Below are positions 10,194 through 64,000 of a stretch of DNA of 64,000 nucleotides, piece by piece. How positions within the stretch are numbered: position 1 is the stretch's first letter; every line of letters begins with the position of its first letter. The stretch lies in NCBI RefSeq assembly GCF_011516825.1, contig NZ_WOTA01000004.1, positions 1-64,000 on the forward strand, written 5' to 3'. Under the pieces are notes generated by a model. The model saw only the letters and a list, made by a program, of their open reading frames with translations. It had not been told where the DNA came from and searched no databases. This DNA is from Acetobacter oeni. GTDB lineage: Bacteria; Pseudomonadota; Alphaproteobacteria; Acetobacterales; Acetobacteraceae. The position numbers and the translations under genes were made by a program.

Positions 10194-10883
10194 ATGTCGA
10201 CTCAGACAGCCTTTCTGTTCCGCCATCAGCCGCGATTTGATGAAACGGGATTTGTTGCGGCGCAATCCAATGCTTCAGCGCGGGCGTGGCTTTTTTCACG
10301 GGATGCCATGCAGGGCTGGTCGGAGAGCCGGCTGATTTTATGGGGCGCGCCGGGACGCGGCAAGACACATCTGTTACAGGCATGGGCAAAGCGATGCGGC
10401 GCTGCGGCTATGGAATGCAGCGATGGCATTCCGGACGCGGCGGTTCTGATGGAAGACGCTCCCGCAGCTCTGGCTCTTGATTCTGTTCCGACTGCGGATT
10501 TTGATGAGCTGGCGCTCCTGCGGATCGTCAATATGGCCCGCGAGCATCGGGTGCCGCTCCTGATGACAGCGCGGCTGCCACCCGGACGATGGAGAGTTTC
10601 TCTTCCCGATCTTTGCAGCCGTCTGAGGGCAACGATGACGGTGGAGCTGAAGCCCGCCGAGGATGCGTTGCTGCTCCGTCTGATGTTGCGGCTGCTCGCG
10701 GAGCGCCAGCTTGTGGTGACACGGCCGGTCACGGAGTGGCTGCTGCACCGCCTGCCGCGTGAAGCGCGGGCAGTGCACGAGGCTGTTGCCAGGATTGATG
10801 CCATGACACTGGCTGCCGGAATACCGCTGGACCGCAAAGGTGCCGCGCGGGTGCTGGAGGACATATGCGGAACCTCGGAATGA
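10194..10883 (+). CDS. hdaA: DnaA-related regulatory ATPase HdaA
   Basis: A 229-residue DnaA-like AAA+ protein lacking the DNA-binding domain of DnaA. Walker A is GAPGRGKTHLL; the Walker B region is degenerate (ALALDSVPTADFDE), and the sensor/lid region follows to the C-terminus. Hda-type proteins work with the sliding clamp to hydrolyse ATP on DnaA after initiation. The first family-like residues, TQTAFLFRHQPRF, begin right after ATG 10194; the frame is open to a GTG at 10104, but that extra 30 residues looks like leader sequence. Position between purM and ppk is the common arrangement in this bacterial family, by my knowledge. Confidence 0.85.
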   Translation: MSTQTAFLFRHQPRFDETGFVAAQSNASARAWLFSRDAMQGWSESRLILWGAPGRGKTHLLQAWAKRCGAAAMECSDGIPDAAVLMEDAPAALALDSVPTADFDELALLRIVNMAREHRVPLLMTARLPPGRWRVSLPDLCSRLRATMTVELKPAEDALLLRLMLRLLAERQLVVTRPVTEWLLHRLPREARAVHEAVARIDAMTLAAGIPLDRKGAARVLEDICGTSE

Positions 10884-11011
10884 CACGGAACCAGAACACC
10901 TGTCCGGTCGATTCAAAAAAAATGTCATGTGACAGCAGTGGATTGTCGGCGTACGGTTGCCGCTCTGAATTGACCCGGCGATGACCGGACCGGACTGACT
11001 GGAGTAAAGCG

Positions 11012-13345
11012 TTGGCGGGGAGTGAAGGTGGTAGCAGGACACGAGGCACGGGGCGCAGGGTAAAAGGCACGACGGGAGCAGAGGCAAAGGCCCGATCCCG
11101 GTCAGCGCGGAATGTTGCGGCAGTTGCCGAAAAAAAGACAGGCAAAACCAGGTCGGCTCTTGCTGCCGTCCGGACCAGAGACGCGGTCAGCCATACGATT
11201 GACGCAACATCTTCTGACCGTTTCATCAACAGGGAACTGTCCTGGCTGGCATTTAATCAGCGTGTCGTGGAAGAGGCGGAGAACGTCCGGAACCCTCTGC
11301 TTGAACGGCTGCGCTTTCTGTCGATCAGCGCCAATAATCTTGATGAATTCTACTCGGTGCGCGTGGCCGGTCTTGTTGGTCAGGTGCGGGAAGGGCTGAT
11401 CTCACTGTCGCCCGACGGTCTGACGCCGGCACTGCAACTCGCTGCTGTCCGGGAAAGGTCGGCGCAGCTTCTGCGGGAACAACAGCGTATATGGACGCAT
11501 CTGCGGGAGCTTCTGGCCGATGCAGGCGTGGTACTGTGCGGCCTTGAGCAGCTTGATGAAGCTGACAGGGTCTGGCTCACAGATTACTTCATGGAGCGTG
11601 TGTTCCCGGTTCTGACACCGCTTGCGGTGGACCCGGCACATCCCCTGCCATTTATCCCCAATATGGGGCTGGCGCTGGCGCTGCGTCTGATTTCGGCCGA
11701 GACGGATAAGTTCGTGATGAACGGGCTCATTCTGCTGCCGGCGCAGGTGGACCGGTTCATTCGTCTGCCATCTCCGCCGGGAAAGCCGCTTGTTGTCCGG
11801 TTCGTACTGCTTGAGAACCTGATTACGCTTTGTATTGACCGGCTTTATCCGGGTCTGGTGATCGGCGAAGGCGGTATGTTGCGTGTCGTGCGCGATACCG
11901 ATGTCGAATTTGAAGACGAAGCGGAAGATCTTGTCCGTTCCTACGAGACGGCGTTGAAACAGCGGCGGCGCGGCGTGGTCATCCATGTGGATATGGAAGC
12001 ACGGGTTCCTCCCGAACTGGCAGCCGCGATTGTCGACGAGCTTGATCTGCCGCCGGAAGAGGTCTCCGTTCATTCCGGAATGATCGGCGTGGTCGATCTG
12101 AAGCAGATGATCGTCGATGATCGCCCGGATCTGCTGTTTCCCCCTTATACGCCACGTTTCCCGGAGCGGATTGTCGATTTCGGCGGGGATTGTTTCGCTG
12201 CGATCAGGGCTAAGGATCTGATCGTTCATCACCCGTTCGAGAGTTTTGATGTGGTGGTACAGTTCCTGCGTCAGGCGGCGCTGGACCCGAATGTTATCGC
12301 GATCAAGCAGACGTTATACCGGACATCGCGTGATAGTCCGATTGTAAAGGCGCTGATCGAGGCCGCCGAATCCGGAAAATCCGTGACGGCGATGGTTGAA
12401 CTGCGGGCGCGGTTTGACGAGGAGGCGAATATCCGTCTGTCCAGGGCACTGGAGGCAGCGGGCGTGCAGGTGGTCTTCGGGTTTGCGGATCTGAAGACGC
12501 ATGCAAAGCTGAGTCTCGTTGTCCGGCGCGAAGGGAGCACGGTTCGCTCTTACGCGCATTTCGGGACCGGCAATTATCATCCGATCACAGCGAAGATTTA
12601 CACGGATCTGTCCTTCTTCACCTGTAATCCGGAACTGGTGCGGGATTCGGCCCGGCTGTTCAATTATGTGACCGGCTACGCGATGCCGTCGAAGATGGAA
12701 GCGATTGCCTTCTCTCCGCTGACCTGCCGCAAGACGCTGGAGAAGCTGATCGACGATGAAATCGCCTTTGTGCGGGCAGGGAAACCCGGACAGATCTGGC
12801 TGAAGATGAATGCGCTTGTCGATCCTGAACTGATCGACAAGCTATATGCGGCGTCCTGCGCGGGCGTGAAAATCATGTGTATCGTTCGCGGGATGTGCTG
12901 TCTGCGTCCCGGTGTGCCGGGATTGTCCGAGAATATCCGGGTAAAGTCGATTGTCGGACGCTTTCTGGAACATGCGCGGATTTACGCATTTGGAAACGGG
13001 CACCGGCTGCCATCACGTTCAGCGAAAGTGTTTATTTCATCGGCTGACTGGATGACACGGAATATGGACTGGCGGGTGGAAAGTCTGGTTCCGATTATGA
13101 ACAGCACGGTTCACGCTCAGGTGCTGGATCAGATCATGGTAACGGATCTGAAGGACAATCTGAATTCGTGGGTTCTGGAACGGACAGGACGTTATCGTCG
13201 GCTGGATCCCGGCACGAAGCCGTTTTCGGCGCATGAATGGTTCATGACGCATCCGTCCCTTTCCGGGCGCGGTTCCGCGGCCGTCGATGTGGGTATGCGC
13301 GCAGCATTGCCACCGCATCCACGGGACCGTCTGGCCGAAGATTAG
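11012..13345 (+). CDS. ppk1: Polyphosphate kinase 1 (TTG start)
   Basis: A 777-residue enzyme that reversibly makes inorganic polyphosphate from ATP. The start is inferred to be TTG 11012, because a GGAG lies 7 bases before it and no ATG or GTG upstream fits. The first ~65 residues are a Lys/Arg/Ser/Gly-rich tail absent from most PPK1 proteins; the canonical domain begins at [15 protein letters not shown]. The phosphorylated histidine lies in [10 protein letters not shown], with [21 protein letters not shown] next, and the second conserved His segment is [13 protein letters not shown]. Usual length is about 690-720. No exopolyphosphatase gene is adjacent. Confidence 0.95.
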
Positions 13346-51660: not shown

Positions 51661-51972
51661 CTGATCCTCCGGCACATCGGCCGGCCTCTGCTGCGGGGAA
51701 ACACCGGAGTCCGGTTCCCCTCCTGACACGAAACACCTTCCAGATAGGCCGCCCCGCTACGGGAAGTCGACCCTCCCGCCGCTCATAACCAGCAGACAGG
51801 CACGGTATTTTGTTTTGGCATCAGGCTGCATCGCGCCTAACGTTCGTTCCGTCTCATCTTCGGCTGTAAAAACAATAACTAAAGGCGAAGCCGGGATTTC
51901 GGAGCGGTCAGGATGCGCGACTATGGGTGGTCAGCGTTCAGGCCCTGTTCCAGCCGGATTCAGGACAGAAGA
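51661..51972. other. Divergent intergenic region upstream of sucC
   Basis: About 310 bases between two divergent genes. It must carry promoters in both directions. A TTG..-rich stretch at 51808-51820 and the AT-rich stretch at 51868-51885 are the only low-GC parts. No palindrome that I would call an operator was found. Confidence 0.35.
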
Positions 51973-53172
51973 ATGAATATTCATGAATATCAGGCCAAGG
52001 AACTTCTGAAGTCCTTTGGTATACCCATCCCCCGTGGCGTCGTCGTCCACTCCCCGGATGAAGCCCGTGACGCAGCAAAGTCCCTCGGCGGGCACCTCTT
52101 CGTCGTCAAGGCCCAGATCCACGCAGGTGGCCGAGGCGCCGGGCACTATTCCGGTGAGCCCGCCTGTAGCGGCGTCCGGCTCGTCAAGACACCGGACGAG
52201 GCCAGAACAGCCGCTTACGAAATGCTGGACCGCACCCTCATCACCCGTCAGACCGGTCCCCAGGGACGCGTGGTCCGCAAACTCTACATCGAAGAAGGAT
52301 GCCCGATCGAACGCGAACTCTACTTCTCCATGCTTATAGACCGGGCGGAACGCTGCATCGTCATCGTCGCCTCCGAAGCAGGCGGCATGAGCATCGAAGA
52401 CGTTGCCGAAAAAATGCCCGACAAGATCCGCAAGGTCGCCATCGACCCGGCGCTCGGCCTCGCCGATCACCAGTCCCGGGAACTCGCAACCAGACTCGGG
52501 CTGCACGGCTCGCAGATCCACCAGTTCGCGGAAATCGTCCGCTCCGCTTACACAGCTTTCACCACGCTCGATGCCGCCCTGATCGAAACCAACCCGCTGG
52601 TCGTGCTGAAAGACGGTTCCCTGCTGATCCTCGATGCGAAAATGGCCTTCGACGACAATGGCCTGTTCCGTCATAAAGCCATCCTTGAACTCCGTGATCC
52701 CAACGAAGAAGACCCCCGCGAGCAGGAAGCCGCCCGCTTCGGCCTGTCCTATGTCGGCCTCGACGGCACCATCGGCTGCATGGTCAACGGCGCCGGTCTC
52801 GCCATGGCCACCATGGACATCATCCACGAAGAAGGAGAATCCCCCGCCAACTTCCTCGATGTCGGCGGCGGCGCCTCAAAAGAAAAAGTCAGCGCCGCCT
52901 TCCGCATTCTCCTGGGCGATTCACGGATCGAAGGCGTGCTGGTCAACATTTTCGGTGGCATCATGCGCTGCGATGTCATCGCCGACGCCGTCATCTCGGC
53001 CTGTCGTGAAGTCGGCCTGCACGTGCCCCTCGTCGTCCGCCTCGCCGGAACCCGCGTAGAGGAGGGCATGGCCCTGATCACAAATTCCGGCCTCAATGTC
53101 ATCGTCGCGACGGATCTCGGAGACGCCGCCCGTAAAATCGTTGCCGCCGTACGCGCCCGGAGGACTGCCTGA
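51973..53172 (+). CDS. sucC: Succinate-CoA ligase beta subunit (or malate-CoA ligase subunit)
   Basis: A 399-residue ATP-grasp subunit. [22 protein letters not shown] opens the domain, [14 protein letters not shown] binds nucleotide, LIETNPLVV and [12 protein letters not shown] follow. It carries the short [16 protein letters not shown] insert seen in alphaproteobacterial SucC. Several stretches ([29 protein letters not shown]) also resemble MtkA of malate-CoA ligase. Its ATG 51973 follows AGGA. It is coupled to sucD (TGATG). With SucD it makes ATP from succinyl-CoA in the TCA cycle; the sequence alone does not exclude malate as substrate. Confidence 0.88.
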
Positions 53173-54047
53173 TGTCCATTCTTGTCGATCACAACACAAA
53201 AGTTATCGTCCAGGGCTTCACCGGCGCACAAGGCACGTTCCACTCGCAGGAATCCCTAGCTTACGGCACGAAAATCGTCGGCGGCGTCACGCCTGGCCGG
53301 GGCGGTGAGAGCCATCTCGGCCTGCCGGTTTTCGACACTGTCGAGCAGGCACAGCAAGAACTGAAGGCCGATGCCACAGTCATCTTCGTCCCGCCCCCCG
53401 GCGCCGCCGACGCCATTCTCGAAGCCATCGCCAATGACATCCGGCTTATCGTCTGCATCACCGAAGGCATCCCCGTGCAGGATATGCTCCGTGTCCGCAT
53501 GGAACTGAACCGCTCATCCAGCCTTCTCATCGGCCCCAACTGCCCCGGCGTGATCACCCCGGACGCCTGCAAGATCGGAATCATGCCAGGCCCGATCCAT
53601 CGACGCGGCCATGTCGGCATCGTCTCCCGCTCCGGAACCCTTACCTACGAGGCCGTAGCCCAGACCACAGCGGTCGGCATGGGTCAGAGCACCAGTGTCG
53701 GCATTGGTGGCGACCCCATCAAAGGCCTTGATTTTGTCGATGTGCTGGAAATGTTTCTCGCTGATCCGGAAACAGAATCCATCATTATGATCGGAGAAAT
53801 CGGCGGCACCTCGGAAAATGACGCCGCCCGCCTCCTCCAGGACAGCCACATCAAAAAACCCGTCGTCGCCCTCGTTGCCGGGATCACCGCTCCCCCGGGG
53901 CGCAGAATGGGTCATGCCGGCGCCGTCATTTCCGGTGGCGAAGACACAGCCGCAGCCAAAATCGAAGTCCTCCGCAGCGCCGGAATCCACATCGCCCCAA
54001 CTCCCGCCGACCTCGGTACCACTCTCCAGACCGTTCTGCGCGGATAG
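53172..54047 (+). CDS. sucD: Succinate-CoA ligase alpha subunit
   Basis: A 291-residue subunit that binds CoA and carries the phosphohistidine. [16 protein letters not shown] is the CoA-binding Rossmann start, [20 protein letters not shown] and [15 protein letters not shown] follow, and the phosphorylated His lies in [14 protein letters not shown]. Length and ends are normal. It starts one base inside the sucC stop. No other TCA gene is nearby; in many Alphaproteobacteria mdh-sucCD-sucAB form one operon, here reduced to sucCD. Confidence 0.93.
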
Positions 54048-55705: not shown

Positions 55706-56293
55706 TTACAGGTCGTCCCGCTCCGCCACCTCCAGAAAACCCTCGATATCCGAACTCATCAGTCCCGGCAGCCGCTCGCGCAATACATCCTCCGCCCAGT
55801 CCCACCACGCCACCGCCAGCAGCCGCGCAATAACCTCCGGGCTGAACCGATGCCGGATCACCCGTGCCGGATTACCCCCCACAATCGCATAAGGTTCCAC
55901 CACGCCCCGAACCAGCGCCCCCGCCGCAATAATCGCTCCGTCGCCAATCCGCGCGCCGGACAGGATCGTGCAGTTCGCCCCGAACCACACATCGTTGCCC
56001 ACCACAATATCGCCGTTCGTCGCGTGATCGTCTTCACCCGCCTCAGCCTCCGGCCAGAAATGCGAGAGCGTTTTGAACGGATATGTCGTCACCATATCCA
56101 TCCGGTGATTCCCCAGGATCATCGTTACATTCGGCCCGATCGAACAAAACCGTCCGATCTCCAGCCCGGCATACTCTGCCTCGAAAACAACCGGCTTTCC
56201 ATAAGTATGATCGCCAATCTTCCAGCCCCGGTCAGCAATCATCCACGACAGCGCATGCCGGGTCAGCAGGGAAAAAGAGTTCGTGCCGAACAT
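55706..56293 (-). CDS. CatB-related hexapeptide O-acetyltransferase
   Basis: A 195-residue left-handed beta-helix protein: LEIGRFCSIGPNVTMILGNHRMDMVTTYPF is the CatB/Vat signature, and GDIVVGNDVWFGANCTILSGARIGDGAIIAAGALV the repeated hexapeptides. VGGNPARVI closes the coil. The family includes xenobiotic acetyltransferases (chloramphenicol CatB, streptogramin Vat) and sugar O-acetyltransferases. Drug resistance should not be inferred. ATG 56293 with GGAG at six bases is preferred over TTG 56308. Confidence 0.9.
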   Translation of the reverse strand: MFGTNSFSLLTRHALSWMIADRGWKIGDHTYGKPVVFEAEYAGLEIGRFCSIGPNVTMILGNHRMDMVTTYPFKTLSHFWPEAEAGEDDHATNGDIVVGNDVWFGANCTILSGARIGDGAIIAAGALVRGVVEPYAIVGGNPARVIRHRFSPEVIARLLAVAWWDWAEDVLRERLPGLMSSDIEGFLEVAERDDL

Positions 56294-56471
56294 GAGCGTC
56301 TCCGTCAAAAAGCTGTCATAGCATCTTCCCCGAAAATGACGCGTAAATCACACCCGCTTCACATCCGGTGAAAACCGCGACGCAAGACGGATGTCCCGGC
56401 CGCTCCCCGAGCCGCACGAAACAGCTTCAGCACATTGTCAGACCAGCATATCCGGCGCGCAGACCGCTATG

Positions 56472-57224
56472 TTACTGAATGTAGTCCGGCTGTTCGCGAT
56501 CGAGCTTACGACGCAGCGCCTGCCAGCACAGACGGCCCTGGTCGCCGCCGGTTTCAAACTGAGCGCGGGTTCGCAAAATTTCTTCTTCAGAAGGAAGATG
56601 AGCCGGCACACCGGTCGACTGCACGGCAATCTGGATACGACAGGCCTGTTCCATGTACCAAATGCGATAGAATGCCTCCGCAACAGTTCCGCCTGCCGCG
56701 AGCAGCCCGTGGTTTTGCAGAATTAATCCGTAATTATTGCCAAGATCACGAACAAGACGCTCCCGCTCGCTCAGATTGTCATCGGCCGCAATGCCTTCAT
56801 AGGCATGAAACCCGATGCGTCCGTAAAACTCCATGCTGATCTGGTTGAGCGGTAAAATCCCGCCTTCCTGTGCCGCAACAGCCATACCGGCAAGGGTATG
56901 AGTGTGCATCACGCAGGCAGCGTCCGGCCGTGCCCGGTGAATGGCGGAATGGATCACAAAGCCCGCCGGATTGACCGGCCAGCTTGTCTCCTGTTTCGGA
57001 TGACCTTCCGCATCGACCAGAACAAGGGAGCTGGCCGTAATTTCCTCGAACAGCAGACCGTAAGGATTGACGAGAAAACTGTGGCCTTCTCCCGGCACCC
57101 GAACGGAAAGATGAGTATAGACGAGGTCCGTCATGCCAAAGAGCGCAACGAGACGATAGGCCGCCGCAAGATCTTCGCGCAGGGACTGCTCATCCTGACC
57201 GTCATAGGGATAATCGGGACTCAT
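56472..57224 (-). CDS. Class II aldolase/adducin family protein
   Basis: A 250-residue metal-dependent protein. [28 protein letters not shown] opens the domain and [15 protein letters not shown] gives the HxH zinc ligands, with the third His in [15 protein letters not shown]. This matches bacterial relatives of L-fuculose-P and ribulose-P aldolases, but the phosphate-binding pocket is not clear, so substrate is unknown. It is the last gene of the right-hand cluster and its ATG overlaps the oxygenase stop (ATGA). It may split a product formed by the oxygenase and isomerase-like enzyme upstream, an inference. Confidence 0.9.
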
Positions 57225-58273
57225 GAATGCGGCGCCTTTCGTCTGAAATGCCCGAAGGTTGCCGTACCACGGGCACCGGAAGGGAGAGAAAGCTCGCCCG
57301 ATTCCACTTTCTGCACAAGGTACTGGTAAGTTTGCAGAGCCTGCGACCACATATGGTCACCAATCCGGATCGTTTCATAGTCCTGACCGCCTTTGTCAAA
57401 GACGGCAAGCGGGCGGATCTGCGTATTATAATCGCAGGCATAAAACAGCGGGAATGAATAACGCTCTTCCCTGACACTACGGACACGATGCGCCGTGGCG
57501 ACAAAGGTGCCGGCCGTCATGACCTCAAGCATATCCCCGATATTGACGACGAACGCACCCGGCAGAGGTGGCGCATCGATCCAGTCGCCGTTTCCGTTCA
57601 TGACTTCAAGACCCGGCTGATCCGCGAGCAGAATAGTAAAACATTCATAATCGGTATGCGCGCCAATGCCTGGCGCATCCCGCACATCTTCGTCGAACGG
57701 GTAGTGAATCATCCGCAGCTTGGAAGGCGGAAATTGCGCCATATCGTCGAACGCATTTTCCGGCAGACCGAGCGCCAGGGCAAAGCCCTGAAAAAGCAGG
57801 CGTCCCAGTGAAAACACCGCCTGATAATAAGCCTCCGCCCGGTTCCGGAACTGCGGAATGTCCGGCCAGTTATTCGGGCCAAGCAGCGGCGTCCCGGCCT
57901 GCACGAGCGGATTGTCGGCCGGGACCTCAAATCCTATATCAAACGCCTCTTTATGATCGGGACGGCTCTTATTGTAGACTTCTTCGCCTTCCGGAACGAA
58001 ACCCTTATGGGTTGCAGACGTGCCGATGTAATAGTCCATCTTCTGTTCGAACGGCATGGCGAAGAAGTCTTTTGCCGCTTCCCTGACGCCGTCGATCAGG
58101 TTCTGTGGAACGCGATGTCCTGAAATATAGAGAAACCCGACATCCCGGGCCGCTTCACCGAGTTTTTCAGCAACGGCCTGCCTGGCGGCCAGATCCGACG
58201 AATAAAGTCCGGAGATATCGACGACCGGTATCGCCGTGAATGTTTCGGCGGGCGTCTGTGTTTCTGTTGTCAT
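57221..58273 (-). CDS. 2-Oxoglutarate/Fe(II) oxygenase, isopenicillin N synthase family
   Basis: A 350-residue non-haem iron oxygenase. [13 protein letters not shown] is the N-terminal DIOX domain; the facial triad is AHTDYE (His-x-Asp) plus the distal His in ATAHRV, and the 2OG-binding pair is seen as RYSFPLF (RxS). [26 protein letters not shown] is typical of the bacterial branch near yeast/plant homologues. Such enzymes hydroxylate, desaturate or cleave small molecules with O2. Start ATG 58273, one base after the isomerase stop; stop overlaps the aldolase start. Confidence 0.92.
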
Positions 58274-58274
58274 G

Positions 58275-59144
58275 TCAGATACCTTCTGAGGTCGAAATCA
58301 CGGCGCGTTGCTGCCAGGATGCGAAATGCCGCCGCTCATTATGACCGATCCATTGATTCAGCTCCCACAGATCGGCGACGGGCGCGTTTGTGAAGGGCAG
58401 GGTGTGGAGATAACCGTCCGGACCGCATTCGGGCGTGAGAGTTGTCACCTCGTAACCGCGAGTGCGTTGTGAAGCCCAGACTTTCTCCCAGAACTGCTGA
58501 TGAAACAGCAGAGCATTCCGATACTCCGGCGCCGCGGGATGAGGTACCTGAGGTCCCTGGTCATAACCGATCCGGGCCTGGATATGATGAACACGCTCGA
58601 TAAAGGCGCTGAAATCATCCAGCGGATCATCGGGGAGACGTTCACAGGTCACAACCCAGTGGCTGATATCCGTCGTAAATACGGCATCAGGGCACTGGCG
58701 AATAACGTCGAGCGTAATCCAGGGCGATGAAAGGATGCGCGACCGGTGCGTTTCAAAACTGCAAAGCAACCCGAAACGCCCGGACAACGTCTGCGCCTGA
58801 TTGATGAAATCAGCCTGCTGAACGGTGCTCCAGCGATCATTGCCTCCCAGAACATTGACGAAGCGCGGCTCCATCACGGCTGCCCGTTGCAGGGCAGTTT
58901 CAAGATCGTTCAGATGGTCTGCAACACTCGCCGCCTGCCTGGGGATAACGCCACCACCTGTCATGGCGATCGCAATAAAAGGTAGATTTTCACGACGCAG
59001 AACCGCCACTTTGTTCTGTGCTTCGGCCACGGTTTCCGGAATCCGCGCCTCGATTCCGTCAAAAGCAGCAGCGCGGATGTCGGGAACAATATCCTCCCAC
59101 GGACGCTGATCTCCCCACAATGTTTTAAAAACACTAAGACGCAT
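58275..59144 (-). CDS. Sugar phosphate isomerase/epimerase-like TIM barrel protein
   Basis: A 289-residue AP endonuclease 2-like barrel. [34 protein letters not shown] and [10 protein letters not shown] hold the acidic and His residues that usually bind the metal in this family. LYLHTLPF near the C-terminus is its last conserved region. Relatives isomerise or epimerise sugars, hydroxypyruvate or inosose. ATG 59144 is chosen since the upstream extension is antisense to the receptor gene; the gap to the receptor stop is 17 bases. It lies one base from the oxygenase start, so the two are co-expressed. Confidence 0.85.
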
Positions 59145-59161
59145 CAGGTCTGTTTCCCGGA

Positions 59162-61489
59162 TCAGAAATTGTAGCGCAGATCGCAGCCCACCCAGCGCGG
59201 TGTCTGGAGGTATTGCACCCGGCTGTTGTCGCTCCCGGTAAAAGAATAGGTGTCGCTGTGCTCGTTGAGCATGTTGTCGACATAAACGGCAGCTGTCCAT
59301 TTTCCGGTTTTCGGGCCGACCTCCATTCGCAGCCCCATGGAACTGACCTTGCCTGTTTTCCCGTTCGGGTCTCCCAGAGCGACCAGCATGTTATCTTTCC
59401 ACGTGTAACTCGCCTGCAATGCAACGCTGTAATCACGGCTGACATCGATGTTGTAGCGTGCGTAAGCGCTCCATGAGAAACGGGGCGCGAAGGGCAGGGC
59501 GGAATGACGATCGACAGTGCCAAGGATCGGCAGACCACCAATCGAAGAGACAGGTGATATGGTCTGTGCATCCAGATAGGCGAACGATCCGTGAACATCG
59601 AGATTTTGGATCAGGTTATGCAATGTACCAGACAGTTCGCCGCCACGGGTCCGGGCGCGGGGGATCGACCCAAGACTAAGTGACGTAATGCCCGCTGGCA
59701 TTTCTGCCACAAACAGCGTCTGGCGATTATGATATTCGTAGTCGAACAGAGCGCCTTCAAGCTGAAGTTTATTGTGAAACAGGCTTGTTTTCGCACCGAC
59801 TTCATAAGCAATCAGATTTTCTGGACGAACATAATCGAGTGCCTGAGGCGCCGTCACCGGAGCAGCGAAATAAGCTCCCGCCTTATAACCGTTTGAGATC
59901 GTGCCATACACAATCGTCCCGGGGGCAATTGTGTAACGCAGTCCCACGCGTCCCGTATAACGCTCATAAGTATGGTTCTGATTGACGTACGACAGAGAGC
60001 TGCCGGCAGTACCGGTCACAGCCCCTGAATCATCCCGGGTGCCACCGTTAAACCCACGCTCGTCATATGACAGACGGCCGGAGGCAATAAAATCCAGCCC
60101 TTTGACGATGTTGGTTACCGTATTGATATACAGGCCGGTCGAGAGATTCTGCTGGACGAAGTGATCCGTCAGATTGGCATTGGGCGCTCCGAGAATGAAA
60201 CTGCGAAAACTCGTGTAAGCACCGTTGATCTTGTCGTAAGATTCATAAACACCGACGGTAAGATGCAGACGTTTCGCAAGGTTCATGCGGAGATGCATGT
60301 CATGGGACTGGACGATATAAGTGTCGTTCCAGTGATAATCGCCGACATGCACGGACTCACCGTCATAATTGTCGTAATCGTCACGACGATAGAAATCGAT
60401 GCCAGTCGCCGACGTAAAGGTTCCGAAACTGAGGTCGCGTGTATAGTTGACCCCGACCCCGCCGCCGTTCTCCTTGCGACGCGCCTGATTATCACCCACG
60501 TTCACGGCATTGTATTTCGCGTTTGACCCGACCCCGATAGTGCGGTCGGGAAGACCGTTTACGGAATCGCCATTCGTGTCCTGCGGCGACATCGGCGTCC
60601 CGCGATCACGCGTATAATGCAGGTTCAGCATGACCGACGATTTGTCGTCGATCACGAACTGGGTGAGGTTACGCAGCGACAGAATATCCTGAGAGCCGTA
60701 AAGCTTTCCCGTATGAATGTCGTGCTGCCAGCCGTCACCCTTGATGTAACTGAAGGCGAACCTGTTATAAATATGGTCCGAGACCGGTGTATTGACGGCA
60801 CCACGAGCCGTATTGGTGTTGTAACTGCTGTAGCCCCAGTTCAGATAGCCACCGAAATGATCGGCCGGTTTGACGGACTCGATATTCATCGTGCCGCCGG
60901 TTGTGCTGCGACCATACTCAAAACCCTGCGGACCTTTTTCAACGCTCACGGTCTGCACATCGAACATCTGCCCGTTGTAGAAAACCGGGTAGGGCGCAAA
61001 AACCCCGTCCATATAAATGCCGATACCACCCATATTCGTGCCGATGTAATCGTCCAGCCCGATGCCGCGTATGGAAAAAATCGGCGTGCTGCCCGATGTT
61101 GCATTAACAGCCGTCACGCCGGGAATGAAGGCCGCGATTTCTTTCGGGCTGACGATATGGAGCTGCTGTAATTCACGTCCGCTCAGGGTGTTGACCGTGT
61201 TCGCCATACTCCCGAAGCGGCGACTTCGCGCACTGGTCACGGTAATGGCTTCCAGAGCCGGAGGCGCTTTCGGACGTGCGTGCGGTCTGACAGATGCCTT
61301 TCCGGTTCTCGCGGTAAGCGGGGCGCTCTGTATCTTTTTTCCGTACACCGTGGCGGCATGGGCCGTCACGTTACCGGTGCCCGCCAGAAGGAGCGCCGTC
61401 AGCAGAACCGGACGATTCCGGGTTAGCGAAGCAGGGCGGAAAAAACCGATACGACTGGTCATGCTGGGAGCTCGCTTCGTTGCTGTCAT
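59162..61489 (-). CDS. TonB-dependent outer-membrane receptor
   Basis: A 775-residue receptor. A long leader with a hydrophobic core (LLTALLLAGTGNVTAHA) precedes a Pro/Lys-rich linker and the TonB box-like EAITVTSAR near residue 80. The plug is FIPGVTAVNATSGSTPIFSIRGIGLDDYIGTNMGG.. with VSVEKGPQGFEYGRSTTGGTMNIES, and a 22-strand barrel ends in the C-terminal RYNF with terminal Phe. It belongs to the FecA/iron-complex-like and carbohydrate-receptor class; no siderophore gene is near. ATG 61462 is an alternative start. It precedes the enzyme genes and follows the ABC genes by 92 bases. Confidence 0.93.
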   Translation of the reverse strand: MTATKRAPSMTSRIGFFRPASLTRNRPVLLTALLLAGTGNVTAHAATVYGKKIQSAPLTARTGKASVRPHARPKAPPALEAITVTSARSRRFGSMANTVNTLSGRELQQLHIVSPKEIAAFIPGVTAVNATSGSTPIFSIRGIGLDDYIGTNMGGIGIYMDGVFAPYPVFYNGQMFDVQTVSVEKGPQGFEYGRSTTGGTMNIESVKPADHFGGYLNWGYSSYNTNTARGAVNTPVSDHIYNRFAFSYIKGDGWQHDIHTGKLYGSQDILSLRNLTQFVIDDKSSVMLNLHYTRDRGTPMSPQDTNGDSVNGLPDRTIGVGSNAKYNAVNVGDNQARRKENGGGVGVNYTRDLSFGTFTSATGIDFYRRDDYDNYDGESVHVGDYHWNDTYIVQSHDMHLRMNLAKRLHLTVGVYESYDKINGAYTSFRSFILGAPNANLTDHFVQQNLSTGLYINTVTNIVKGLDFIASGRLSYDERGFNGGTRDDSGAVTGTAGSSLSYVNQNHTYERYTGRVGLRYTIAPGTIVYGTISNGYKAGAYFAAPVTAPQALDYVRPENLIAYEVGAKTSLFHNKLQLEGALFDYEYHNRQTLFVAEMPAGITSLSLGSIPRARTRGGELSGTLHNLIQNLDVHGSFAYLDAQTISPVSSIGGLPILGTVDRHSALPFAPRFSWSAYARYNIDVSRDYSVALQASYTWKDNMLVALGDPNGKTGKVSSMGLRMEVGPKTGKWTAAVYVDNMLNEHSDTYSFTGSDNSRVQYLQTPRWVGCDLRYNF

Positions 61490-61499
61490 TTCTATTCAA

Positions 61500-61524
61500 G
61501 AATGAAACGGCTCCGGTTTCGTTC
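61500..61524. promoter_or_regulatory. Inverted repeat just upstream of the TonB receptor gene
   Basis: GAATGAAAC (61500-61508) and GTTTCGTTC (61516-61524) form a 9-bp inverted repeat with one mismatch and a 7-base spacer, 11 bases from the receptor ATG. A shorter hairpin (CAAAG/CTTTG at 61534-61547) lies beside it. They may form an operator or leader structure controlling receptor expression separately from the ABC genes. Confidence 0.45.
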
Positions 61525-61581
61525 GTAAGATGCCAAAGCTTACTTTGATAAAACTTTATATATCGATCAGCAGCCTTCCGC

Positions 61582-62340
61582 TCAGTACCGGATCATGCGG
61601 TCGAGAAAGTTTCGCGCACGGTCGGTTTTCGGGGACGTGAAGAAATCTTCGGGCGGAGCCACTTCAAGAATGGCGCCCCGGTCCATGAAGACAATCCGGT
61701 CCGCTATCCGTCGCGCAAACCCCATCTCATGTGTGACACAGACGGTAGTGATCTCCTGGGCTGCCAGATCGTCCATGATGCTGACAATGCCTGAAATTGC
61801 TTCAGGATCGAGCGCCGCCGTCGGTTCATCGAACAGAATAATTTCCGGATTCATGCAGAGAGCGCGCGCGATGGCGACACGCTGCTGTTGTCCTCCCGAA
61901 AGCTGGATCGGATATTTGTCAGCCTGTTCCGCAATGCCCACCTGCTCAAGATAACGCCGTGCGGCAGCGTCCGCTGCTTCACGTGCGGTGCCGCGCACAA
62001 GACGCGGCGCAAGTGTGCAGTTATCCACCGCACTGAGATGCGGAAACAGGTTGTAATTCTGAAACACCATTCCGACTGTTCCTCGCAGTTCAGTCAGATC
62101 GGTCTTTCCGTCGATGATTTTTCCGTCGATCATCAGCACGCCACTGTCATGTGGCTCAATACGGTTGAGGCAGCGGATCAGCGTCGATTTTCCTGAACCT
62201 GACGGCCCCAGAACAACAATTTTCTCACCTCTGGCGATATCGAGGCTGATACGGTCGAGTGCCAGAAAATCTTTGTAGAATTTGCTGAGATTCCGAATGG
62301 AGATCCTTGAGGCGGGATCGGGCAGGAGACTATGCGACAT
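61582..62340 (-). CDS. Polar amino acid-type ABC transporter ATPase
   Basis: A 252-residue ATPase. Walker A is [23 protein letters not shown], the signature [16 protein letters not shown], Walker [15 protein letters not shown] and the switch His is in VTHEM. All match the GlnQ/HisP/ArtP group. ATG 62340 overlaps the last 11 bases of the fused permease gene, so the two subunits are coupled. It powers import of the ligand captured by the fused protein. Confidence 0.93.
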
Positions 62341-63883
62341 TGGCGGAGGCCTTGTTGCGATCGGCCCAGGCAAAACGGCGTTCAATCCGTTTTTGCAGAT
62401 AAAGGAAGAAAAACACCATCGCGAGATAATAGATCAGCGCGGCAGAGTAATATTCGGTGAACTCGAATGTCCGGGCAACCTGGATCTGAGTGACGGCAAG
62501 AAGCTCCTGCAACGAAATGACGGAGGCCAGGGATGTTGTTTTCAGAAGACTGATGAACTCATTGATCGTCGGTGGCAGCGCGATACGCAGAGCCTGCGGG
62601 AAAATGACATGTCGATAGACCTGCGCAGATTTCATACCAAGCGCATCGGCGGCCAGGCGTTGACCCGGGTCTACGGCCCGCAGCGCGGCGCGGTTGATTT
62701 CCACCTGATAGGCGGATTCGTTGATGGAGAGCGAGAGCCAGGTCGCGAGAAAGGGCGTAAACCAGTGCTCGCGGAAGAAAGGCAGGAATTGCGGCAGGGC
62801 ATTCCAGATGAAAAGAAGCTGAAGAAGCGTTGGCGCGCCGCGAAAAACAGCAACATACGCCGAGAGTATAAATTTCAGCGGCGAATCAGGCCCGTTGAGC
62901 CGCATGGCGATCGGGATCGAAATGACAATCGCCATCATATGCGAGAGCACCGCAATCGTCAGCGTAAGAGCAGCGCCTTTCAGGAAAGCCACGGACGTCA
63001 GCGCAGAGAAAAACGTCGCAAAATCGAAGCGGGCCGGTGCATTTTTTTCCGAGAAAACCTGCTCGTGCTCGCCTGAAACACCCCATTTCTTCTCAAGCCC
63101 GGCAATCTCGCCTCCCGATGTCAGATCGTCGATGGCTCGTTGCAGTTGCACCCTGTCTTCTGCGTTCTTACGAATATAAATCGCGAATTGTCGGTAATCC
63201 GGATAATCCGGCTTGAAAATGATGCTGACTTTTCCACCGAGCTGCTTCTGACGATAATACAGCTCAACGTCCTGACTGATAAAGGCATTTACCCGTCCGA
63301 TCAGAACCTGCTGAACGACCTGATCTTCGGTCGGGTATTGCTGCACGATAATCGGCGTGCGCCCTTCAGCCCTGAGCGTGTCATTCTCTTTTTCAATCCG
63401 TGCGGCATAACTTGTGCCGGACTGAGTCGCGATCGTCTTGCCTGACAGATCCGTCATCGCGGTAAGCTTCGGGGCGCCGGCGCGGGCGACGACAACCAGC
63501 GCTGAGTCCGCATACGGAACCGCATCGTAGTTCTTCTCGCGTCCGCTCTGGCGCAGAACACCGCTGATTACCATCCCGCACCGCCGGGCCGCGAGACTGG
63601 GAAACATACCCTCGAAATCCATGGTGTCAGGAACGAAGGTTGCATGCCAGCGGGCCGCCAGCAGGCGGGCAAGATCGATGTCCATGCCCGCCAGGGCAGT
63701 CGTGTCGCTGCCGTTGACGAATGTCATCGGTGGCAGAGTCGGATTGGTACACAGCGTCAGCTGACCGTCCTGAATAAACCCGGGCGTTTCATCGGCCCGG
63801 GCGGCGGGATGATGCAGGACCAGCCCGGTCAGCGTGAACAACAGACACAACAACACGGACAGGCCGCGTGACCCCGGACTCAT
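62330..63883 (-). CDS. Fused solute-binding protein/permease of a polar amino acid-type ABC importer
   Basis: A 517-residue fusion. Residues 1-30 are a signal/anchor segment; 35-270 form a type 3 solute-binding domain (LTLCTNPTLPPMTF, GMDIDLARLLAARW, GKTIATQSGTSYA); the rest is a HisM/GlnP-like permease (AALTLTIAVLSHMMAIVISIPIAM, with the conserved EAA loop NRAALRAVDPGQRLAADALGM). The linkage keeps the ligand-binding domain tethered on the periplasmic side, as in GlnP-type fusions of Firmicutes. Start ATG overlaps the upstream stop (TGATG). The ligand is unknown; despite the family name it need not be an amino acid. Confidence 0.92.
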   Translation of the reverse strand: MSPGSRGLSVLLCLLFTLTGLVLHHPAARADETPGFIQDGQLTLCTNPTLPPMTFVNGSDTTALAGMDIDLARLLAARWHATFVPDTMDFEGMFPSLAARRCGMVISGVLRQSGREKNYDAVPYADSALVVVARAGAPKLTAMTDLSGKTIATQSGTSYAARIEKENDTLRAEGRTPIIVQQYPTEDQVVQQVLIGRVNAFISQDVELYYRQKQLGGKVSIIFKPDYPDYRQFAIYIRKNAEDRVQLQRAIDDLTSGGEIAGLEKKWGVSGEHEQVFSEKNAPARFDFATFFSALTSVAFLKGAALTLTIAVLSHMMAIVISIPIAMRLNGPDSPLKFILSAYVAVFRGAPTLLQLLFIWNALPQFLPFFREHWFTPFLATWLSLSINESAYQVEINRAALRAVDPGQRLAADALGMKSAQVYRHVIFPQALRIALPPTINEFISLLKTTSLASVISLQELLAVTQIQVARTFEFTEYYSAALIYYLAMVFFFLYLQKRIERRFAWADRNKASANVA

Positions 63884-64000
63884 CAGCAGACCTCTTCGAG
63901 AATAGCGCGAAACGTCTCTGCCAGAAGGCCGTTTTCCGGGGTGGGACGCACAAGGAGATGGAATGTATTTGTCAGGTGCAGATCACTGAAATCGACATGA
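63883..64000 (-). CDS. C-terminal end of a probable LysR-type regulator (cut by window edge)
   Basis: The last 38 codons and a TGA are present. The peptide HVDFSDLHLTNTFHLLVR is followed by an amphipathic helix (ENGLLAETFRAILEEVC), resembling the end of a LysR effector-binding domain, but 38 residues are too few for certainty. The stop overlaps the start of the fused binding-protein/permease gene, so it belongs to the same transcript. If it is a regulator, it would be encoded as the first gene of the cluster it controls. Confidence 0.45.
   Translation of the reverse strand, partial: HVDFSDLHLTNTFHLLVRPTPENGLLAETFRAILEEVC

Follow-up and report, generated by a model that had tools for sequence, protein, structure and literature searches.

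What does a bacterium take up and degrade with a run of seven genes in which an ABC importer of the amino-acid type and a TonB receptor are joined by a TIM-barrel protein, a 2OG/Fe(II) oxygenase and a class II aldolase-like protein? The question is raised by Acetobacter oeni contig NZ_WOTA01000004.1, whose positions 1 to 64,000 constitute the window (64,000 nucleotides) considered here; C4 denotes contig coordinates. A sequence-only reading had described a unidirectional seven-gene cluster headed by a probable regulator, and the cluster is indeed real and intact, with all genes on the - strand: six complete ORFs lie within the window, and the regulator, a LysR protein, is represented in the window by its 3′ end only and is completed past the edge. 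The features of the locus are:

56472..57224, - strand: AldII, a class II aldolase/adducin-fold protein of the PRK07044 subfamily, last gene of the run (Pfam, NCBIfam)
57221..58273, - strand: 2ODD, a 2OG/Fe(II) oxygenase (Pfam DIOX_N and 2OG-FeII_Oxy, tree, alignment with shared motifs, model)
58275..59144, - strand: TIM barrel, xylose-isomerase/epimerase-like (AP_endonuc_2 below cut-off, conserved residues, model)
59162..61489, - strand: TonB-dependent outer-membrane receptor (Pfam Plug and TonB barrel, synteny)
61582..62340, - strand: ATPase of a polar-amino-acid-type ABC importer (Pfam ABC_tran; best NCBIfam model GlnQ, below cut-off)
62330..63883, - strand: fused family 3 substrate-binding protein (SBP) and permease of the same importer (Pfam SBP_bac_3 and BPD_transp_1)
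63883..64000, - strand: LysR-type regulator, 3′ end only in the window (the ORF reaches C4:64968 at most)
C4:65043-65924, + strand: ADI/DDAH-like hydrolase, outside the window, divergent from LysR
C4:65949-66890, + strand: GhrA-like dehydrogenase, outside the window, divergent from LysR
C4:66937-68211, + strand: GabT-like aminotransferase, outside the window, divergent from LysR

The genes are tightly packed, as had been noted, with overlaps or gaps of at most 17 nt at five of the six junctions: LysR and the SBP overlap by 1 nt, the SBP and the ATPase by 11 nt if the latter begins, as is likely from the sequence, at the ATG at 62340 (its ORF extends to 62385), and 2ODD and AldII by 4 nt (ATGA), with gaps of 17 nt between TonB and TIM and 1 nt between TIM and 2ODD; the exception is the 92 nt between the ATPase and TonB. 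The domain calls of that reading also held, with SBP_bac_3, BPD_transp_1, ABC_tran, Plug, TonB barrel, DIOX_N, 2OG-FeII_Oxy and Aldolase_II all above their Pfam cut-offs. The search of other genomes that it had proposed found gene order kept well beyond close strains: several genera of acetic acid bacteria share the gene set, and its core is also present in Pseudomonas, Klebsiella, Marinobacterium and Terasakiispira. Four Komagataeibacter loci are divided into two separate units, the ABC/TonB genes and, in the opposite orientation, TIM-2ODD-AldII. Relatives of the TonB receptor were matched solely at loci of acetic acid bacteria, and it thus looks like an accessory. The solved relatives of the SBP are AncQR and Gln/Arg binding proteins; the Arg aligned with the conserved ligand Arg of AncQR, which we take to be carboxylate-binding, is kept in 11/11 SBPs, and the canonical ligand-amino Asp has no clear counterpart in the alignment, so that the ligand need not be an alpha-amino acid.

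The closest biochemical precedent for the oxygenase comes from Vreelandella boliviensis, where the oxygenase–partner pair MgdH/MgdL has been shown biochemically to demethylate methylguanidine; MgdH is described there as acting on methylguanidine and N,N-dimethylguanidine but on none of the other compounds tested, methylarginines included, and as forming a long-lived guanidino hemiaminal, and MgdL, first described in 2025, as an uncommon enzyme whose dedicated task is to split the hydroxylated guanidino intermediate (PMC12508155). In our tree, the TIM-partnered oxygenases are sister to four MgdH-like oxygenases, a branch without the Vreelandella MgdH sequence itself (joint node 97/96). Three of these four have as a neighbor an MgdL-like protein bearing a D-x-R motif; the Acinetobacter and Novosphingobium pairs are identified as MgdH/MgdL from their context and this motif. 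Foldseek comparison of the predicted 2ODD model (pLDDT 79.6) placed two solved structures closest, namely 9ovh, an ancestral reconstruction of the ethylene-forming enzyme (EFE), and 6jyv, an oxygenase of Pseudomonas aeruginosa PAO1 (presumably PA4191) that is the closest natural protein of known structure at 33% identity; the EFE structures are only 23-25% identical. In the PDB, 6jyv carries an isopenicillin N synthase (IPNS) title. No function was found for it beyond the likening of near-inactive EFE ancestors to this oxygenase (PMC12329707). The earlier designation of 2ODD as an isopenicillin-N-synthase-type oxygenase does not hold: fungal IPNS matched at 1.7e-26 versus 8.7e-67 for the nearest solved sequence, and both relatedness and context argue against an IPNS identity. 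2ODD appears instead to go with the MgdH-like oxygenases.

The partner of the oxygenase is a TIM-barrel protein that reaches 28.2 bits against AP_endonuc_2 (Pfam gathering cut-off 31.1). The nearest folds to its predicted model (pLDDT 82.9) are sugar epimerases and AsbF, and it matches xylose-isomerase-like proteins with probability 1.00 and TM 0.50-0.65. Residues E133, D161, H164, H189 and E241 (numbered on a 291-aa query beginning 2 residues ahead of the start codon) are invariant across 19 sequences. Given the fold it shares with sugar epimerases and dehydratases, TIM could be an isomerase that works on either side of the oxygenase step. A full-length 2ODD adjoins TIM in 20 of the 21 named loci; in L016 the oxygenase is reduced to a 50-residue piece. 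TIM is kept with an oxygenase even where the oxygenase family changes, being partnered with one of the fatty-acid-desaturase family in G435 and G490. Distant relatives of TIM (28-29%) occur in Runella and Spirosoma near phytanoyl-CoA-dioxygenase-family and sugar-type genes.

Import and degradation were thus rightly read from the cluster; its substrate class, which had been left blank, can be narrowed, as in three lineages the pair has neighbors indicative of a guanidino compound. In the acetic acid bacteria, the neighbor is the ADI-like hydrolase, which exceeds the Pfam cut-offs for ADI (88.5 bits) and DDAH_eukar (70.6 bits), has near its C-terminus a GGSVHC motif that presumably holds the catalytic Cys, and falls under the NCBIfam cut-offs for named enzymes (PRK01388, 73 vs 414; ArcA, 66 vs 489; DDAH, 57 vs 300). 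With matches counted if full-length and no less than 66% identical, in a 299-genome draw of the family, its gene is present in 13/14 TIM carriers and 13/285 non-carriers, the carriers being related and therefore not 14 independent events. In all 13 carriers having both, the two genes share a contig and lie within about 7 kb of each other. G295 has TIM-2ODD without an ADI-like match, and L082 and L084 have the ADI, LysR and ABC genes without a TIM match, as would follow from 2ODD/TIM being an addition to a core set for guanidino acids. An M20 carbamoylase adjoins the ADI-like gene in some relatives. The window genome has no match to the PF00491 ureohydrolases and no full-length match to a guanidine/urea carboxylase, which makes the ADI-like enzyme the obvious guanidine-removing step; degradation of free guanidine in this genome was rejected on the same grounds.

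In 5 of the 20 non-acetic loci (two Marinobacterium, where the genes were located by tblastn, Terasakiispira, Klebsiella and G455), a guanidinobutyrase-like gene lies directly before TIM; this count, like those for carboxylases, covers TIM carriers only. The Terasakiispira protein scores 502 bits to the 3nio guanidinobutyrase versus 313 to 3-guanidinopropionase, and has a Met at the position of 3nio Met161, which is Tyr in 3nip and which we take to be the specificity residue; the residue is of the GbuA type rather than the GpuA type. In Paraburkholderia, TIM-2ODD is flanked by two guanidine-I riboswitches and lies upstream of a UAAP1-UAAP2/carboxylase/allophanate hydrolase operon, with no AldII beside the pair. 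A guanidine riboswitch was found in Paraburkholderia only, among the 13 stretches compared with Rfam; such control of the window locus was discarded, there being no Rfam match (L002/L003). The examined stretches of ten Pseudomonas-type loci (L013-L018, L021, L056, L057, L059) contain none of the guanidine-handling genes that were sought.

We propose, at an even chance of being correct, that the locus serves to scavenge a guanidino acid by coupling import, N-dealkylation by the oxygenase and TIM, and guanidine hydrolysis, where the reactions, their order and the substrate are what we infer. Behind this reading are the gene order, its conservation, the protein families and the guanidino-specific neighbors. 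A carboxylated guanidino compound would enter via the TonB receptor and the amino-acid-type importer. With O2 and 2-oxoglutarate, the oxygenase would hydroxylate the carbon adjoining a guanidino nitrogen, most simply of an N-methyl or other N-alkyl group, yielding a guanidino hemiaminal akin to the long-lived MgdH product. TIM might then act in MgdL's place as a metal-type lyase splitting the hemiaminal to an aldehyde and the dealkylated guanidino acid, from which the ADI-like hydrolase, with the M20 carbamoylase in some relatives, would take off the guanidine group, an equivalent step probably falling to guanidinobutyrase in some gammaproteobacteria. The residual amino acid (GABA, if the intermediate is 4-guanidinobutyrate) could pass to an aminotransferase; GabT adjoins the locus in the window genome only, among annotated TIM loci, and its role in the pathway is accordingly left as possible. 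GhrA and AldII might deal with a part of the compound that is an alpha-keto or alpha-hydroxy acid; neither has a firm place in the N-dealkylation scheme.

A narrower version of this proposal, for which we hold out a low probability, is a route for N-methylated arginine derivatives: imported methylarginines, or their methylguanidino-keto or -butyrate products, would pass through alpha-keto/alpha-hydroxy acids to N-methylated 4-guanidinobutyrate, followed by oxidative N-demethylation, cleavage by a TIM lyase that replaced MgdL by convergence, and release of GABA via the ADI-like enzyme and carbamoylase or guanidinobutyrase. TIM would then be a new hemiaminal lyase class that also partners other oxygenase families. 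MgdL homologs were found in 0/369 genomes of a gammaproteobacterial draw, which shows little, as the search had no positive control; the Vreelandella pair was not recovered.

AldII is central to a somewhat unlikely alternative, namely that a guanidino compound is hydroxylated on its chain, with TIM isomerizing, epimerizing or dehydrating the hydroxylated acid, AldII making a retro-aldol cut and GhrA reducing the keto-acid piece before the ADI-like or guanidinobutyrase step. The modeled TIM fold, resembling sugar epimerases and AsbF, would suit it, as does the presence of AldII at every acetic TIM locus examined except L011, and of GhrA, a D-2-hydroxyacid dehydrogenase family member, at some of them as well as in Klebsiella and G455 (GhrA was not found in the examined stretches of the Gluconacetobacter and Komagataeibacter loci). 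Against this, AldII is missing from the examined stretches of L015, L017, L056, L057 and L059, all of the Pseudomonas type, which retain TIM-2ODD and the importer, and is likewise missing where the Paraburkholderia pair sits by its guanidine operon; the nearest characterized oxygenase type attacks an N-methyl carbon (PMC12508155). Nor does the kinship of AldII favor it. The earlier label of class II aldolase holds for the fold (Aldolase_II, 165 bits; PRK07044, 338 bits, cut-off 207; queries started 3 residues ahead of the start codon) and fails for kinship to sugar-phosphate aldolases: the nearest solved relatives are 3ocr, adducins, 4xxf, TqaM and NovR, with E. coli-type FucA further off, and 4xxf, though named a fuculose-1-phosphate aldolase, is placed between adducins and TqaM. 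A FucA/AraD identity was rejected (FucA models, 26-50 vs 250-400 bits; AraD-type, 22-60 vs 251-369).

More doubtful is release of free guanidine from a larger guanidino acid in the manner of EFE or homoarginine-6-hydroxylase, with the semialdehyde used and guanidine exported or otherwise degraded. The Paraburkholderia operon and the EFE ancestor as nearest solved oxygenase are consistent with it, as are a full-length carboxylase elsewhere in the genome in 8/8 non-acetic carriers of the phylum draw (guanidine- and urea-specific forms pooled) and UAAP1 and UAAP2 beside the carboxylase in 4/4 genomes examined, three of them non-acetic. However, no PF00491 match and no carboxylase match, whether full-length or partial, came from the window genome or from 9 of the 13 other acetic carriers, and on this reading an ADI-like enzyme or guanidinobutyrase by TIM would be left without an obvious job. 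Finally, a compound unrelated to guanidine (e.g., a sugar-like or hydroxy-acid metabolite), with the ADI-like, ureohydrolase and carboxylase neighbors coincidental or freeing nitrogen from another group, is very improbable: TIM, AldII and GhrA on their own resemble, to our eye, acid-sugar catabolism, and the Runella and Spirosoma neighborhoods fit this, but three unrelated types of guanidine-handling enzyme by one pair across lineages, and an MgdH-like sister clade, are hard to obtain by chance.

We found no description of the oxygenase/TIM system in the open-licence papers searched. If the scavenging reading is true, a second, unrelated family is tied to the sister oxygenases and kept upon oxygenase swap, and stable hemiaminals would be a widespread problem of metabolism to which more than one solution has arisen. 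This reading would also point to N-substituted guanidino acids as natural nutrients and give testable functions to genes annotated merely as 2OG oxygenase, sugar isomerase or aldolase, with the binding protein and regulator of the cluster as handles for finding the ligand.

Among known systems, EFE and the plant homoarginine-6-hydroxylases, which act on guanidino amino acids (arginine, homoarginine), belong to the same oxygenase superfamily as 2ODD; they have no TIM partner that we know of, and 2ODD differs from EFE in its low identity to the structures given above. The GbuA route converts 4-guanidinobutyrate to GABA and urea; it is paralleled by the GbuA-like gene before TIM in the five gammaproteobacterial loci and by the GabT-like gene of the window locus, whereas the window genome, lacking a PF00491 match, has the ADI/DDAH-like enzyme in that place. 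Unlike MgdH/MgdL, the oxygenase studied here has a TIM barrel rather than MgdL as its partner, and the window locus, with neither guanidine riboswitch nor carboxylase, features an amino-acid-type importer, a TonB receptor and an ADI-like hydrolase that replaces the carboxylase pathway. Yet the two systems share an apparently sister-clade 2OG/Fe oxygenase coupled to a dedicated partner gene and, in Paraburkholderia, the adjacency of the pair to guanidine-degrading genes.

The cluster of the window is, we infer, devoted to guanidino catabolism, with an MgdH-like oxygenase probably acting alongside a different partner protein, and would thus be a variant of a known process. The seven-gene cluster described in the sequence-only reading was confirmed: six complete genes, plus the 3' part of a seventh, are read in one direction on the - strand, five of the six junctions overlap or are no more than 17 nt apart, and the broad domain assignments of the proteins were upheld by domain searches. 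The functional interpretation offered with it, the import and degradation of a scarce compound, is supported in part and is here sharpened toward guanidino substrates. The contig, whose first 64 kb form the window, is 227 kb long, in a genome of 4.1 Mb, and reading beyond the window edge showed the first gene to code for a LysR regulator; divergent from it are genes for an ADI/DDAH-like hydrolase (ADI-like), a GhrA-like D-2-hydroxyacid dehydrogenase and a GabT-like aminotransferase. Two further features of the window are:

51913-54047, + strand, downstream of the cluster: succinyl-CoA-ligase-like pair by eye (ATP-grasp beta and alpha subunits), which might alternatively be a malate-CoA ligase
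55706-56308, - strand: acetyltransferase of the hexapeptide-repeat type, similar to Vat and CatB (streptogramin/chloramphenicol acetyltransferases) but far under their curated cut-offs (160 vs 300 bits and 138 vs 350)

A scan of named genomes with the TIM-barrel protein (TIM) recovered 21 loci, divided between acetic acid bacteria (10), the gammaproteobacteria Pseudomonas, Marinobacterium and Terasakiispira (10 together) and a Marinimicrobia bin (one). The named relatives closest to the window's TIM gene all belong to Acetobacteraceae. A full-length 2OG/Fe(II) oxygenase gene (2ODD) follows TIM in 20 of the 21, the exception being Pseudomonas sp. 30_B (L016), where TIM and the importer are present and the oxygenase is reduced to a 50-residue piece (10873-11022), apparently a decayed copy. 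The acetic loci usually show the order SBP/permease, ATPase, TonB, TIM, 2ODD and class II aldolase-fold protein (AldII), with the ADI-like gene, found in nine of the 10, divergent from the importer; the one lacking it (L011) is a short contig. LysR is matched at six of the 10, with no match at the Gluconacetobacter loci L004, L005, L009 and L010, and GhrA is likewise missing from some. The gene order is rearranged in four Komagataeibacter loci, each of which consists of two units and has an M20 carbamoylase gene after the ADI-like one. The gammaproteobacterial order is TIM, 2ODD, SBP and permease/ATPase, often with AldII next. Strong TIM carriers number 14/299 genomes in the family draw and 9/398 in the phylum draw (the source genome counts in both, and some draw loci duplicate named genomes, e.g., L058 = L013 and L068 = L045); hence, the module is patchily distributed. 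In the Marinimicrobia bin (L020, 2961-3827), the gene immediately before TIM resembles, by eye, a phytanoyl-CoA-dioxygenase-family oxygenase.

Beyond the acetic acid bacteria, a guanidinobutyrase-like gene immediately precedes TIM in five of 20 loci, counted among TIM loci only (11 named, two plasmid-collection records and seven of eight phylum-draw loci, L058 being left out as it shares a contig with L013):

L019 and L022: Marinobacterium
L023: Terasakiispira
L046: Klebsiella
L060: genome G455

For the Terasakiispira protein, the score to 3nio (guanidinobutyrase) is 502 bits, against 313 to 3nip (3-guanidinopropionase) and 168 to 7esr. In Paraburkholderia sprentiae, the TIM-2ODD pair is flanked by two guanidine-I riboswitches, and directly downstream are UAAP1, UAAP2, carboxylase and allophanate hydrolase genes, with a guanidine-II riboswitch preceding the carboxylase; none of the 12 other stretches searched yielded a guanidine riboswitch. 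A main rival to the route proposed below is that free guanidine is released. Among the carriers, the only genomes counted, a full-length carboxylase (in some cases read as two adjoining pieces) occurs in all eight non-acetic ones, and PF00491 is matched in 7/22; the acetic carriers G008 and G295 have a full-length carboxylase and G169 a partial one. UAAP1 and UAAP2 adjoin the carboxylase in all four genomes fetched (G008, G355, G483 and G435). The source genome has neither a PF00491 match nor a full-length carboxylase match.

The window oxygenase shares a 12-residue motif, RYSFxLF and QT(Y/F) with oxygenases of Acinetobacter, Sphingobium and Novosphingobium. A tree of 24 sequences covered 16 TIM-partnered oxygenases, four MgdH-like ones from Acinetobacter, Sphingobium and Novosphingobium, and four outsiders. 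Each of the first two sets groups by itself (TIM-partnered 84/77, MgdH-like 100/99), and the two are joined at 97/96 against the outsiders. The oxygenases of four guanidinobutyrase-linked loci group together (95/88; L022 is not in the tree), and that of L061 is a long branch. In the Vreelandella study, methylguanidine is reported to be hydroxylated by MgdH, giving a hemiaminal whose half-life exceeds 1 h and which is split by MgdL, D49 and R51 of the latter being required (PMC12508155). Three of the four MgdH-like tree oxygenases, those of Acinetobacter and two Novosphingobium, adjoin an MgdL-like protein in which a DLR motif is invariant; no other plasmid-collection record has such a protein. 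For two of the four (Acinetobacter and Sphingobium), the fetched stretch contains genes for carboxylase and allophanate hydrolase.

For TIM itself, a sequence search gave no solved relative at E up to 1. Sugar epimerases and AsbF are among the 50 matches listed for its predicted model (pLDDT 82.9), with probability 1.00 and TM 0.50-0.65, and residues E133, D161, H164, H189 and E241 (query numbering), invariant in 19 sequences, could form a putative metal site as in such folds. The other main rival to the proposed route is hydroxylation of the chain with TIM as an isomerase. In Runella and Spirosoma, a phytanoyl-CoA dioxygenase family gene lies near TIM relatives of 28-29% identity; that TIM also accompanies oxygenases of other families argues that it acts on the product of the oxygenase. 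In G435 and G490 (L062 10414-11445, L063 8470-9726), a fatty-acid-desaturase-family oxygenase replaces the 2OG oxygenase directly beside TIM, accompanied by a nitrate/taurine-type ABC importer.

The ADI-like hydrolase tracks TIM across the 299 family genomes: its close clade, defined by full-length matches with an identity of 66% or more (other full-length ones reach 52% at most, with one 81-residue piece at 61% in between), is found in 13/14 carriers, all except G295, vs 13/285 non-carriers (Fisher p 7e-15, ignoring kinship among genomes). A looser set of 90 matching genomes (E up to 1e-15) gives 13/14 vs 77/285 (p 9e-7). In two other Acetobacteraceae genomes with ~50%-identical proteins (L089 9371-10237, L090 8731-9564), the next gene resembles, by eye, a GlcD-type FAD-linked oxidase, again tying the hydrolase to 2-hydroxy acids. 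Two family genomes with no TIM match (L082 and L084) have ADI-like, LysR, ABC and AldII genes, the former also GhrA, M20 and TonB, and their clusters lack the oxygenase along with TIM; L086 has ABC and ADI-like genes together. Thus, importer and ADI-like hydrolase look like a core, and 2ODD/TIM an extension. The fetched stretches of the other ADI-only genomes (L083, L085 and L087) showed no ABC genes. A PtaA-like (pyoverdine transaminase-like) aminotransferase is encoded in L082 (5119-6288) and, by eye, L084 (7799-8977).

We propose that a guanidino acid would undergo oxidative N-dealkylation and then lose its guanidine group, the same net change being achievable through the ADI-like enzyme with M20 or through guanidinobutyrase. 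The binding proteins, which keep an Arg in 11/11 and do not clearly keep an Asp, would be compatible with a guanidino acid ligand that has no alpha-amino group, and guanidinobutyrase together with GabT hints at 4-guanidinobutyrate. An alpha-keto or hydroxy acid may be processed by GhrA and AldII; among the nearest solved relatives of the latter are TqaM and NovR, which act on hydroxy acids. Just as MgdH/MgdL extends a guanidine carboxylase operon, 2ODD/TIM would extend the importer/ADI-like core; unlike in that system, the MgdH-like oxygenase would here be partnered by TIM rather than MgdL.
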